Positions 58,752 to 62,716 of a stretch of DNA of 64,000 nt are shown one piece after another. The position numbers and the translations under genes were made by a program. Below the pieces are notes generated by a model. The model did not search any database. It had not been told where the DNA came from and saw only the letters and a program-made list of their open reading frames with translations. Origin of the DNA: Kaistella treverensis (GTDB lineage: Bacteria; Bacteroidota; Bacteroidia; Flavobacteriales; Weeksellaceae); the NCBI RefSeq assembly GCF_900114045.1, contig NZ_FORQ01000002.1, positions 434,001 to 498,000 of the forward strand, read 5' to 3'. Every line of letters begins with the position of its first letter. The stretch's first letter is position 1.

Positions 58752-59510
58752 CTAAAAATTAACGTTGACCGAGTATTTATCGTAAAAAGCTTTAATATGA
58801 CTTACCGCTTCATCGGCCGTATCTACAACGCGATACAGGTTCAAATCTTCCGGAGAAATCATTCCGTTTTCCAGCAAAGTGTCTTTAAACCATTCGAATA
58901 ACCCGGCCCAAAATTTAGATCCGACCATTACGATCGGGAAGCGCCCGATTTTATTGGTTTGAATTAAAGTCATCGCCTCCATCAACTCATCCAATGTACC
59001 AAAACCACCCGGCATCACGACAAAACCCTGAGAATATTTTACAAACATCACTTTGCGAACGAAAAAGTAATCGAAATCAATGCTTAAACCTTTGTCGATG
59101 AACGGATTAAAATGTTGCTCAAAAGGCAAATCAATATTCAGTCCGATGGATTTTCCGCCACCTTTTCTCGCACCGCGGTTTCCGGCCTCCATAATTCCGG
59201 GGCCGCCGCCGGTGATAATTCCAAAACCGATATCGGTAATTTTTTCAGCAATTTCTACAGCAAGATCGTAGTATTTGTCGCCTTCTTTTAAACGTGCTGA
59301 GCCAAAAATAGAAACGCAGGGACCAATTTTCGCCATTTTCTCGTAGCCGTCCACAAACTCCGCCATTACTTTGAAAACCATCCAGCTGTCTTTGGTTACC
59401 ATTTCATCCCAGGTTTTTTCCTTGAATGAATTCTGTATTCGCTGATCAATTTCCAGAAGACTGCCGCTCGCTTCCTTCGTGGTGCCTTTGCCTCTTTTTA
59501 TTTTGCTCAT
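58752..59510 (-). CDS. LOG family protein (TIGR00730 type)
   Basis: A 252-residue Rossmann-fold protein of the Lonely Guy family, which cleaves nucleoside 5'-monophosphates to base and ribose 5-phosphate. It carries both signatures: GGGPGIMEAGNRGARKGGG and PGGFGTLDELMEAMTLIQTNK. SIFGSARLKEGDKYYDLA precedes them. It starts directly after the stop of the MurU-like gene (adjacent bases), so it is the last gene of the four-gene minus-strand operon. Cytokinin-type activity is known for plant homologues; the bacterial substrate here is likely AMP or a related nucleotide. Confidence 0.88.
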   Translation of the reverse strand: MSKIKRGKGTTKEASGSLLEIDQRIQNSFKEKTWDEMVTKDSWMVFKVMAEFVDGYEKMAKIGPCVSIFGSARLKEGDKYYDLAVEIAEKITDIGFGIITGGGPGIMEAGNRGARKGGGKSIGLNIDLPFEQHFNPFIDKGLSIDFDYFFVRKVMFVKYSQGFVVMPGGFGTLDELMEAMTLIQTNKIGRFPIVMVGSKFWAGLFEWFKDTLLENGMISPEDLNLYRVVDTADEAVSHIKAFYDKYSVNVNF

Positions 59511-60224
59511 TTATATAAAAATTTTTTCAGCCGCCGCAATAGATTCCGGTTTACCAACATCTACAATATGGGCGTTGTGTTCGTATCCGAAAATCGATTC
59601 CGTCATCATCAAATCTAGATATTCCTCCATAATCGAAAATTTTCCGCGTCTTTTTATTTTGCGGAAGATCTGCGGCTTTACACAGTGAATTCCGCTGAAA
59701 GCCAAAGGCTTAAAACCCTTATTGAATTCCGCCAAACGCTGCTCGCCACTTTCTACATTTAGCCAGCCTTTCAGAATCATTTCCGGGCTGAAGAGCAGTT
59801 TTCGGGAACTTTTACGGTCTGATACGGCTAAAGTAGCAAAATCTTTCTTTTCCTGATGATATTTTATAAATAAATTCAAATCCAGATCGGTTAAAATATC
59901 CGCATTCATAATCAGAAAATCTTCGCCGCCGTCTAAAAATTTCTGAGCAAAAAGCAAACCGCCGCCGGTTTCCAGCAGCTGATCTTTCTCATCAGAAAGC
60001 TCAATCCTGGCATTGAAATTATTATTTTCCTGAAGAAAAGTTCGGATTTGGTCACCAAAATGATGAATATTGATGACAAAATCATTGATGCCATAACTTT
60101 GCAGATATTTTATATTTCTTTCCAGCAAGGGAACACCGTTCACGGGCGCCAGCGCTTTCGGATGGTTGTCGGTAAAAGGTTTCAGGCGCGTGCCTTTTCC
60201 GGCTGCAAAAATCAGCGCTTTCAT
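59511..60224 (-). CDS. Sugar-1-phosphate nucleotidyltransferase (MurU-like)
   Basis: A 237-residue nucleotidyltransferase with the N-terminal signature MKALIFAAGKGTRLKPFTDNHPKALAPVNGVPLLERNI and metal-binding Asp in MNADILTDLD. The size and short C-terminus, without an acyltransferase repeat, fit MurU, which makes UDP-MurNAc from MurNAc 1-phosphate in cell-wall recycling, better than GlmU or RmlA. The position two genes after an AmgK-like kinase supports that reading. Mannose-1-phosphate guanylyltransferase is the main alternative. It overlaps the RapZ-domain gene by four bases. Confidence 0.78.
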   Translation of the reverse strand: MKALIFAAGKGTRLKPFTDNHPKALAPVNGVPLLERNIKYLQSYGINDFVINIHHFGDQIRTFLQENNNFNARIELSDEKDQLLETGGGLLFAQKFLDGGEDFLIMNADILTDLDLNLFIKYHQEKKDFATLAVSDRKSSRKLLFSPEMILKGWLNVESGEQRLAEFNKGFKPLAFSGIHCVKPQIFRKIKRRGKFSIMEEYLDLMMTESIFGYEHNAHIVDVGKPESIAAAEKIFI

Positions 60225-60634
60225 GAAACTGTATTCAACTGCGGCTGTTCGTCGTGATTGATCGAAACGCTGGCTTCCGGATATTTTTCGCGGATAAATT
60301 CAGCAGTTTTTTCAGCGGCGTAAACCGAACGGTGTTGGCCACCGGTACAGCCAAAATTTATCTGAAGATTTTCAAAACCGCGCGACAGATAATTTTCAAT
60401 ATTAATGGAAATGATGTTTTTCACCGCTTCTAAAAATTCCGGCATTTTTGTGCTTTTTTTCAGAAATTCCTGAACGCCGATGTCGCAGCCGGTTTGTGCT
60501 TTAAATTCTTCCAACCGTCCCGGATTTAAAACGCCGCGACAGTCAAAAGCGAAGCCGCCACCGTTACCGGAATAATCCTTCGGAATTCCGCCTTTTTTAT
60601 AGGAAAAACTGTGTATTTCGATTTTTAAACTCAT
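60221..60634 (-). CDS. Stand-alone RapZ C-terminal domain protein
   Basis: A 137-residue protein equal in length to the C-terminal half of RapZ (YvcJ). It has the domain's hallmarks: IEIHSFSYKKGGIP at the start, FDCRGVLNPGR, and FGCTGGQHRSVYAAEKTAEFI. The N-terminal P-loop kinase-like domain of RapZ is wholly absent, and no such ORF is upstream. In enterobacteria this domain binds small RNA and senses glucosamine 6-phosphate. Here it lies between AmgK-like and MurU-like genes, so a link to amino-sugar balance is plausible but unproven. Confidence 0.82.
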   Translation of the reverse strand: MSLKIEIHSFSYKKGGIPKDYSGNGGGFAFDCRGVLNPGRLEEFKAQTGCDIGVQEFLKKSTKMPEFLEAVKNIISINIENYLSRGFENLQINFGCTGGQHRSVYAAEKTAEFIREKYPEASVSINHDEQPQLNTVS

Positions 60635-60674
60635 TATAATTTTTTGTAGACTTTCAGAGTCAAGCTTAAAAATT

Positions 60675-61697
60675 TCAAGCTTTTGAAAGCATATTTTTGA
60701 TTTTTAATTGTGTTTCTGGCGCTTTTAGTGATCGAATTAACTTTAAAAGCTCCGGATATTTATGCATTTCTTGCCACGATTTGGAGAAATTTTGAAGGTT
60801 TGAAATTCCCTGATTTAAGCTTTCCATAAAATGCGATTTTCTTTGAATTAAACCACGGAATCCATAGGCGCCCAAAACCTGTAAAAACCGAATTAATTGC
60901 AGATATTCCAGCGAATTTTTTAATTGAGATTTTTTCACCTCGTCGTCCCAAAGCAAATAATAATATTCGAGCATTTTTGCCTTAAATTCTGCGGAAAAAT
61001 TTGCTTTTGCCTGGAAAAGAAAGGAAATTACATCGTACATCAGCGGACCTTCCATCGCCGACTGATAATCGATGAAAAAAACTTCATCGCGCTCATTCAC
61101 CATAATATTTCTTGCCTGAAAATCCCGGATCATAATTCCGCGCGGCTCTAGTTTTTCTATTTTTTGGATGAGGTTTTTAAACTCCTGAAGTAAACTGGAT
61201 TTGTGATAAGGAAGTTCCAACACATCGGCGACGAAACTTTTGAAATAAAATAAATCGTTGGTAATGGCGAGCTCACCGTATTCTTTGTACTCGAAAGTTT
61301 TAGAAAAATTCACGGCATTTTGGGTCTTTTTTTGTGTTTCAGCTAAACGAAAAAGCGCGCTTTTAACAAGTTTTTCGACACGATCTGTTTGCCCTTCTGC
61401 AGCGATAATTTCGGATAAAGTCTCTTTTCCGACAAACTGCTGAATGTACAATTTTCGGTCTTCCGAAATTTTTAAAATTTTGGGCGTATTTAAATCAAGT
61501 TCAGAGAAAAGTGATGAAAAATAAAAAAAAGCCTCGTTTTCAGCCAAATTTTCATTGTAGGTCACCACGTATTTATGGTCATCTTTTGTTCCGATGAAAT
61601 TTCGTCGCGCCGAACCACTTTGTTCTAAAAGGTAAAAATTGCCCGTTTTAGCGCCTAAAAAATTTTCAAGAAAAGACTGAGCTTCTGTGATGGTCAT
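60675..61697 (-). CDS. Aminoglycoside-phosphotransferase-fold kinase (AmgK-like)
   Basis: A 340-residue kinase of the APH/choline-kinase fold. The N-lobe has LLEQSGSARRNFIGTKDDHKYVVTYNE, and the catalytic loop is RGIMIRDFQARNIMV (Asp with following Asn) with the metal Asp in VFFIDYQSAMEGPLMYDV. AmgK, the anomeric MurNAc/GlcNAc kinase, has the same length, and its usual partner murU-like gene is two genes downstream. An unrelated small-molecule kinase remains possible. A TATATTTG box ends six bases before the ATG, implying a leaderless message. It is the first gene of a four-gene operon. Confidence 0.75.
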   Translation of the reverse strand: MTITEAQSFLENFLGAKTGNFYLLEQSGSARRNFIGTKDDHKYVVTYNENLAENEAFFYFSSLFSELDLNTPKILKISEDRKLYIQQFVGKETLSEIIAAEGQTDRVEKLVKSALFRLAETQKKTQNAVNFSKTFEYKEYGELAITNDLFYFKSFVADVLELPYHKSSLLQEFKNLIQKIEKLEPRGIMIRDFQARNIMVNERDEVFFIDYQSAMEGPLMYDVISFLFQAKANFSAEFKAKMLEYYYLLWDDEVKKSQLKNSLEYLQLIRFLQVLGAYGFRGLIQRKSHFMESLNQGISNLQNFSKSWQEMHKYPELLKLIRSLKAPETQLKIKNMLSKA

Positions 61698-61703
61698 ATG
61701 TTA

Positions 61704-61711
61704 CAAATATA
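61704..61711 (-). promoter_or_regulatory. Promoter -7 box for the AmgK-like operon
   Basis: On the minus strand this reads TATATTTG, six bases before the start codon at 61697. Transcription would begin at or next to the ATG. Confidence 0.5.
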
Positions 61712-61736
61712 GGAAAAATCCTATTTTAGAAAGCAG

Positions 61737-61744
61737 TATATTTG
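61737..61744 (+). promoter_or_regulatory. Promoter -7 box for xrtF
   Basis: TATATTTG ends five bases before the xrtF ATG at 61750, again suggesting a leaderless message. Confidence 0.5.
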
Positions 61745-61749
61745 CCGTA

Positions 61750-62292
61750 ATGTTCAGTGATTTTAAACCGGTTCTGGGAGTTCTTCTGCGGTTCGTCGCC
61801 ATTTATGTGGTGACGGTTTTGCTGTACCAGCTGTACCTAAATCAATACCAAAATGCCGGGCTGGACCCGTTTTCGACTTGGGTGATGAAACAGGTTGATT
61901 TTATCCAAAATTCTTTCGGTTATTCATCTGAAATGGTTCCCGGAAAACCTGAAGAGGAAACGACCTGGTTTTACGTGAGCGGACAGTACGTCTCGCGAAT
62001 GGTGGAAGGCTGTAATGCGATTTCGGTGATGATACTTTTCCTCTCCTTTATTTTTGCTTTTTACAAAGGTTATAAAACTTTTGTTTTTGTGGCCGTTTCC
62101 TTGGTAGCGCTCCATATCATGAATGTTCTGCGCATTGTGGGGCTGAATATTCTTTTGGTTGAAATGCCGCAATATTCCAAAATCGGGCACGACTATTTAT
62201 TTCCTGCGATTATTTATGGAAGTGTGGTGATTCTTTGGTTAATTTGGATTAAATTTTTCGCGATAAATGAAGTTCCGGATGAAACTGCTTAA
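61750..62292 (+). CDS. xrtF: Exosortase family protein XrtF
   Basis: A 180-residue membrane transpeptidase-like protein of the exosortase/archaeosortase group, F subtype. The three catalytic residues are visible: Cys88 in MVEGCNAISVMILF, Arg128 in VLRIVGLN, and His147 in KIGHDYLFPAIIYG. About four to five membrane helices surround them. Exosortases cut and process C-terminal sorting signals on exported proteins. ATG at 61750 is used because the longer reading starts upstream of the promoter box. The next gene encodes the partner found with XrtF. Confidence 0.88.
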   Translation: MFSDFKPVLGVLLRFVAIYVVTVLLYQLYLNQYQNAGLDPFSTWVMKQVDFIQNSFGYSSEMVPGKPEEETTWFYVSGQYVSRMVEGCNAISVMILFLSFIFAFYKGYKTFVFVAVSLVALHIMNVLRIVGLNILLVEMPQYSKIGHDYLFPAIIYGSVVILWLIWIKFFAINEVPDETA

Positions 62293-62716
62293 ATGGTTTT
62301 TGGTGGCGCTGTGCGTTTTCGGACTAATCGCAGTGAGAATGTTCGAAGACCAACTTTTTTACGATCCGTTTCAGGCATTTTTTCACATCGCAAATGAACA
62401 TGCGACTTTCCCGGCTTTTGAATGGAGTCCGCTGATTTTCGGCTATATTTTCAGGTTTTTTTTGAATTTAGCTTTATCAACTGCAATTGTTCACCTTATT
62501 TTCAACAGCAAAAGATGGACGCTGCAAGCTGCCGTTTTAATTACAGTTGTATTTCTGATTACATTTCCCATTTACCTTTACTGCATTTACACGCACTTTG
62601 AAGTCGGTTATCTTTTCTCATTTTATATGAGAAGATTCGTCATTCAGCCGCTGATTTTATTGCTGATTATTCCGCTTTTTTATTACCGTTTACATACGAC
62701 GAAGGCAAATCATTAA
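62279..62716 (+). CDS. Exosortase F system-associated membrane protein
   Basis: A 145-residue protein with about four membrane helices. The segment VRMFEDQLFYDPFQAFF after the first helix, FRFFLNLALSTAIVHLIF in the second, and YMRRFVIQPLILLLIIPLFYY at the end match the small protein that accompanies XrtF in flavobacteria. Its role is unknown. The start may be 62279 (14-base overlap with xrtF) or 62267, which adds four residues. It converges with the cation transporter gene and overlaps its end by 50 bases on the opposite strand. Confidence 0.82.
   Translation: MKLLKWFLVALCVFGLIAVRMFEDQLFYDPFQAFFHIANEHATFPAFEWSPLIFGYIFRFFLNLALSTAIVHLIFNSKRWTLQAAVLITVVFLITFPIYLYCIYTHFEVGYLFSFYMRRFVIQPLILLLIIPLFYYRLHTTKANH

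Follow-up and report, generated by a model that had tools for sequence, protein, structure and literature searches.

Background

What does the C-terminal domain of RapZ do between a sugar kinase resembling AmgK and a nucleotidyltransferase resembling MurU? The question is raised by three adjacent genes of Kaistella treverensis, which lie in the window (the whole 64-kb stretch of DNA analysed here) and for which the original prediction proposed a MurNAc-recycling operon with a built-in amino-sugar sensor or regulator. The C-terminal domain of E. coli RapZ (RapZ-CTD) binds GlcN6P (PMC7073468) and the roles of its RNA-contacting residues have been described (PMC9841335, PMC7073468); according to the E. 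coli authors, many bacteria share the putative sugar-phosphate site, but the part that binds RNA is not similarly widespread (PMC7073468). The answer bears on the disposal of MurNAc-6P in those Bacteroidota that possess AnmK and lack MurQ, and on the bypass of MurA inhibition (fosfomycin) in Bacteroidota. Besides, a tail-less RapZ C-domain inside a recycling kinase would be a direct and simple system for probing the role of the RapZ pocket.

Results and Discussion

The locus in Kaistella treverensis

The features of the locus, in coordinates of the window, are the following:

61697-60675, minus strand: KIN, an APH-fold sugar kinase, AmgK-like, 340 aa (PF01636, E 3.3e-11)
60634-60221, minus strand: RAPC, a stand-alone RapZ C-terminal domain, 137 aa (PF22740, E 3.3e-29)
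60224-59511, minus strand: MURU, a MurU-like sugar-1-phosphate nucleotidyltransferase, 237 aa (NF045761, E 7e-44)
58752-59510, minus strand: a LOG/TIGR00730-family gene (TIGR00730, 152 bits)
61704..61711, minus strand: TATATTTG, a candidate promoter element (TAnnTTTG match, 6 nt 5' of the KIN ATG)
61687-62716, plus strand: an XrtF-type exosortase and a flavo_near_exo membrane protein (TIGR04128, 196 bits; TIGR04127)

The prediction had started from three consecutive reading frames on one strand with a four-base overlap, and these are borne out to the exact nucleotide on the minus strand: KIN and RAPC are separated by 40 bp, RAPC and MURU overlap by 4 bp (ATGA), and the LOG/TIGR00730 gene follows directly 3' of MURU with zero gap. 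The order KIN-RAPC-MURU is kept in Chryseobacterium, so the arrangement is not due to chance, and among the 80 named loci of our survey the LOG gene adjoins MURU only in Chryseobacterium and Epilithonimonas (L033-L039). TAnnTTTG is the consensus of the Bacteroidetes promoter element; it is matched 35-36 times per strand in the 64 kb, including the site in front of KIN, and no such element was found upstream of RAPC on the minus strand. As far as the sequence allows us to judge, KIN, RAPC, MURU and the LOG gene probably form one operon. No Rfam family was matched in a scan of the 64-kb window, and no further neighbours of the unit that are conserved across families were found.

On the other side of KIN, a second TATATTTG element faces the divergently oriented exosortase gene. 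The listed GTG start of this gene overlaps KIN, and an ATG near 61750, just past the TATATTTG element, fits better. The exosortase and flavo_near_exo pair, divergent from KIN, is also found beside the unit in Chryseobacterium.

An AmgK-like kinase and a MurU-like transferase

The best NCBIfam model for KIN is AmgK (E 4.9e-12), with a score of 45.6 bits that is below the equivalog cut-off of 550, and for MURU it is MurU, with 150.4 bits, again below the equivalog cut-off (250); other sugar nucleotidyltransferase models match MURU more weakly, the best of them with 88 bits. The closest PDB sequences to MURU are also MurU structures (8hhd, E 1.1e-25; 4y7t, E 2.3e-25), and MURU looks like a minimal nucleotidyltransferase, with GxGTR, Lys23, Asp109 and Asp222 conserved in 23 relatives. 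In KIN the catalytic motifs RDFQARN and IDYQ are intact, and the catalytic Asp/Asn and metal Asp of APH enzymes (RDFxxRN and ID motifs) are conserved in 26 relatives. An AF2 model of a fused KIN-RAPC protein from Phocaeicola plebeius (pLDDT 94.1, pTM 0.76), which has good local confidence and comes without an inter-domain error estimate, predicts an APH fold for the kinase part, with 3csv as the closest PDB entry (E 2.5e-13). The assignment of the two enzymes as AmgK- and MurU-like is thus supported by the best-matching models and by the predicted kinase fold of the fused relative.

A RapZ C-domain with the phosphate loop but without the RNA-binding tail

RAPC matches PF22740 over the whole domain with 102 bits (cut-off 27), but only residues 160-276 of the 278-residue model of full-length RapZ, the N-terminal Walker-type domain being absent. 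It is the single RapZ C-domain in the genome of Kaistella treverensis, where no full-length RapZ was found. The description of RAPC as a "kinase-less" RapZ domain is correct in that the N-terminal ATPase domain of RapZ is missing, but it overlooks that an AmgK-like kinase is there instead, usually in the same polypeptide in the relatives. The AF2 model of RAPC (pLDDT 94.8) was matched by Foldseek to E. coli RapZ-CTD (5o5s, TM 0.81/0.90, E 1.7e-8). Residues 96-103 form the phosphate loop CTGGQHRS, in which C96-X5-R102-S103 is placed by the model between a strand (89-96) and a helix (102-117). In the pocket of E. coli RapZ, sulfate or malonate is held by the backbone of T248/G249 and by H190, H252 and R253 (PMC5737377). 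The equivalents of C247, T248, G249, H252 and R253 are invariant in 45 relatives; the H190 position is occupied by Gly in RAPC and is invariant across the relatives.

The residues used by the E. coli protein to bind RNA have fared differently. Loss of four residues of its tail abolishes RNA binding (PMC7073468), and in RAPC the tail residues K270, K281, R282 and K283 are replaced by P, Q, L and N. Likewise, K251 is replaced by Q, K194 by E and R238 by F; at the other contact positions RAPC retains K170 and R184 and has Lys in place of R196 and R211. Conservation of the loop together with the loss of most RNA-binding residues argues against an RNA adaptor and in favour of a phosphosugar site acting in cis, in line with the proposal that the domain works without the known small RNAs GlmY and GlmZ.

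Separate genes as a result of gene fission

The survey of gene order across Bacteroidota that the original prediction called for was carried out on the 80 named loci, and the association holds, though mostly in the form of a KIN-RAPC fusion. KIN and RAPC are encoded by one ORF in 70 of these loci, by separate genes at the same locus in five loci, all from Chryseobacterium, and in overlapping frames in two (L073 and L104); in the remaining three KIN is absent nearby. Outside the family to which the window belongs, RAPC is nearly always the C-terminal part of a protein of 480-520 aa with KIN at the N-terminus, and the fusion protein is usually followed by MURU, which is directly downstream in 42 of the 75 loci with enough room. 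One of the 70 fusions includes MURU as well: in a Bacteroidaceae metagenome assembly (L094:6885-9203) a single ORF of 773 aa comprises KIN, RAPC and MURU. Two Epilithonimonas loci (L035 and L036) exhibit a RAPC-MURU-LOG cluster without KIN upstream.

In the kinase tree, the window and Chryseobacterium form one clade that is nested in fused lineages (supports 97 and 98) and sits beside loci from Chitinophagales-like genomes. The 47-aa tail of KIN and the 8-aa head of RAPC together correspond to the usual linker of the fused proteins (49-58 aa), which indicates that the split fell in the linker. Given the nested position of the split clade and the break in the linker, the separate KIN and RAPC genes of the window are, on sequence comparison, the product of fission of an AmgK-RapZ-C fusion. 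Hence, of the predicted stand-alone regulator gene only the separate ORF stands; in the light of the relatives it is a piece of a broken-up fusion protein. The RapZ C-domain was not found in f2, the other sampled family of the same order, which makes it plausible that the domain arrived by horizontal transfer.

Co-occurrence with the recycling pathway

In our first sample of 296 Bacteroidota genomes the RapZ C-domain is present in 36, every one of which also encodes KIN (strong matches, E < 1e-70) and MURU (E < 1e-56). In a second sample of 69 genomes from one family (f16) it is present in 22, again all with strong KIN matches, so that in the joined samples KIN accompanies RAPC in 53 of 53 distinct genomes. 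The three proteins are kept even when encoded on different contigs or far apart (G180 and G271). In the latter genome (L148 and L149) the RapZ C-domain is encoded alone amid unrelated genes, more than 500 kb from KIN. Together with the fusions, this co-occurrence supports a functional tie of the RapZ domain to the pathway. The dependence is not symmetrical: at least four genomes (G009, G312, G316 and G327) have KIN without RAPC, G321 has a KIN fragment only, and the 63 genomes of family f17 have a distant AmgK-MurU pair without RAPC.

The catabolic MurNAc-6P etherase MurQ is present in 195 of the 196 genomes with neither KIN-RAPC nor the f17 pair, as compared to 16 of the 36 RAPC genomes (Fisher p 4e-18, from counts that ignore shared ancestry) and none of the 63 f17 genomes. 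The KIN/RAPC/MURU unit is thus complementary to MurQ, which supports a role in anabolic recycling of muramic acid. AnmK is no simple correlate of RAPC, as it is found in 26 of 36 genomes with it and 182 of 260 without it, which is no difference; a signal emerges only once MurQ is taken into account. AnmK is combined with a lack of MurQ in 13 genomes from six families, among them Kaistella treverensis, and each of these carries RAPC. Conversely, AnmK was not found in any of the 64 genomes of the phylum sample that have KIN and MURU without RAPC, 63 of which belong to one family. Family f16, taken as a separate check of the link to AnmK, was uninformative (3 of 22 against 0 of 5). Of the 36 RAPC genomes of the phylum sample, 10 lack AnmK, and seven of these lack MurQ as well; in f16, AnmK is missing from 19 of the 22 RAPC genomes. 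NamZ was rejected as a discriminating gene, since it was found in 286 of 296 genomes.

Genomes with AnmK and without MurQ presumably make MurNAc-6P, which would become a substrate for AmgK only after dephosphorylation, a step performed in Pseudomonas by the HAD enzyme MupP (PMC5371407). Kaistella treverensis has two HAD_2 genes, one β-phosphoglucomutase-like and one for a YjjG nucleotidase; no MupP was found among them (best score 40.8 bits, cut-off 359).

Possible functions of the RapZ C-domain

We propose that the three genes constitute an anabolic MurNAc-salvage unit of Bacteroidota, in which the AmgK-type kinase would convert MurNAc to MurNAc-alpha-1-phosphate and the MurU-type transferase would convert the latter to UDP-MurNAc. 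RAPC would be a dedicated module of the kinase, to which it is joined as the C-terminal half in most relatives; in the lineage of the window, a break in the linker has turned one gene into two, whose products would be synthesised next to each other and presumably come together again. The CTGGxHR loop may bind a phosphosugar, for which GlcN6P, GlcNAc-6P, MurNAc-6P or the product of the kinase are candidates, and RAPC may thereby adjust the activity of the kinase directly, by allostery, with no need for small RNAs or RNase E. This reading, in which RAPC is a phosphosugar-binding module that needs no RNA and acts in cis on an AmgK-type kinase, is the one we prefer, at about even odds.

The pattern C-X5-R(S/T) is that of cysteine-based phosphatases, and it is fitted both by C247-X5-R253-S of E. 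coli RapZ and by the loop of RAPC. RAPC could therefore be an enzyme that uses its C-X5-R(S) site to remove the 6-phosphate of MurNAc-6P made by AnmK and passes MurNAc to the attached kinase, so that KIN-RAPC would equal MupP plus AmgK. Such a role, which the original prediction did not consider and which we regard as possible though somewhat unlikely, would agree with the presence of RAPC in all AnmK-positive, MurQ-negative genomes, with the lack of AnmK in the 64 genomes that have KIN and MURU but no RAPC, and with the scores of the two HAD_2 genes, neither of which is a MupP by model score. Published data fit as well: the C247A and C247S variants of E. coli RapZ are inactive, and its authors suggest that the SH group may be catalytic; GlcN6P in the crystals was probably chemically transformed in the pocket (PMC9841335); and phosphatase activity has been reported for YvcJ, a RapZ homologue from Bacillus subtilis (PMC7525490). 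The invariant Cys and the dead C247S mutant suggest a role beyond binding. However, homology of RAPC with protein phosphatases was supported neither by a PDB profile search nor by Foldseek, which returned only RapZ, followed by phosphofructokinase and others at E > 1, with no phosphotyrosine-type phosphatase among the 50 matches listed; the likeness is therefore a local motif at most, and no general acid was recognised for the candidate site. Moreover, RAPC persists in the genomes without AnmK enumerated above, the contrast in AnmK comes from a small number of independent lineages, and the HAD survey covered the HAD_2 class only. The non-phosphatase fold and the occurrence in AnmK-less genomes lead us to rank a sensor or regulatory module first and a phosphatase second. 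We give a similar probability to the wider scenario that the RapZ C-domain was originally a C-X5-R phosphosugar phosphatase, which would be retained in Bacteroidota as a MurNAc-6P phosphatase fused to AmgK and repurposed in E. coli as an RNA-binding sensor.

Two further explanations concern the sugar and the RNA. As the scores of KIN and MURU fall well short of the curated AmgK and MurU cut-offs, and other nucleotidyltransferase models match MURU, albeit more weakly, another sugar is possible: the trio might make a nucleotide sugar other than UDP-MurNAc (e.g. from GlcNAc or another free sugar), with RAPC serving that route. We find this improbable in view of the precedence of MurU among both the models and the PDB matches, the complementarity of the unit to MurQ, and the distant AmgK-MurU pair of f17, which at the locus read (L146) adjoins NamZ, an exo-N-acetylmuramidase. 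Least probable is that RAPC acts, like E. coli RapZ, as an RNA-binding adaptor that regulates the operon or glmS via a small RNA yet to be found: homology to E. coli RapZ-CTD and the retained equivalents of K170 and R184 would be expected of such a protein, but RAPC has lost the basic tail along with several further RNA contacts, the domain is covalently fused to a metabolic kinase in the relatives, and the window contains no Rfam match.

Comparison with known systems

Among the open-access papers searched, none that deals with RapZ together with AmgK or MurU was found, so the association is new as far as checked, while its parts are known. Fused KIN-RAPC proteins may already be an architecture in domain databases, and the nearest case in the literature is reportedly AmgK of Tannerella forsythia.

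The route known from Pseudomonas, in which AnmK and MupP precede AmgK and MurU (PMC5371407), shares with the unit described here an APH kinase and a MurU-type transferase, and AnmK is present and MurQ absent in Kaistella treverensis too. On the other hand, the kinase of Bacteroidota would work with a RapZ C-domain, the sequence similarity is remote, and the HAD_2 genes lack a MupP type. In the f17 cluster (L146), genes for an AmgK-like kinase, a MurU-like transferase that ends in a hexapeptide-repeat tail, and the exo-N-acetylmuramidase NamZ follow one another. It resembles our unit in that the kinase adjoins a MurU-like transferase and MurQ is absent, and differs from it by the lack of a RapZ C-domain and of AnmK, by the hexapeptide tail and by the link to NamZ. 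The sampled f17 genomes lack both AnmK and MurQ.

YvcJ of Bacillus subtilis, with its partner GlmR, is also a case of a RapZ homologue tied to amino-sugar metabolism with no evidence of RNA binding, and it has been reported to bind UDP-GlcNAc (PMC7525490). However, it is a full-length RapZ with a P-loop NTPase domain, and GlmR is not a sugar kinase. E. coli RapZ-CTD has 29% identity to RAPC, the same fold and the same CTGGxHRSV loop, but it is attached to a Walker-type N-domain, whereas RAPC is tied to an APH sugar kinase. RAPC further differs in an SGNGGG insertion before the second strand, in Gly at the position of the pocket residue H190, which is needed in E. coli, and in the loss of the basic RNA-binding tail and of K251, K194 and R238.
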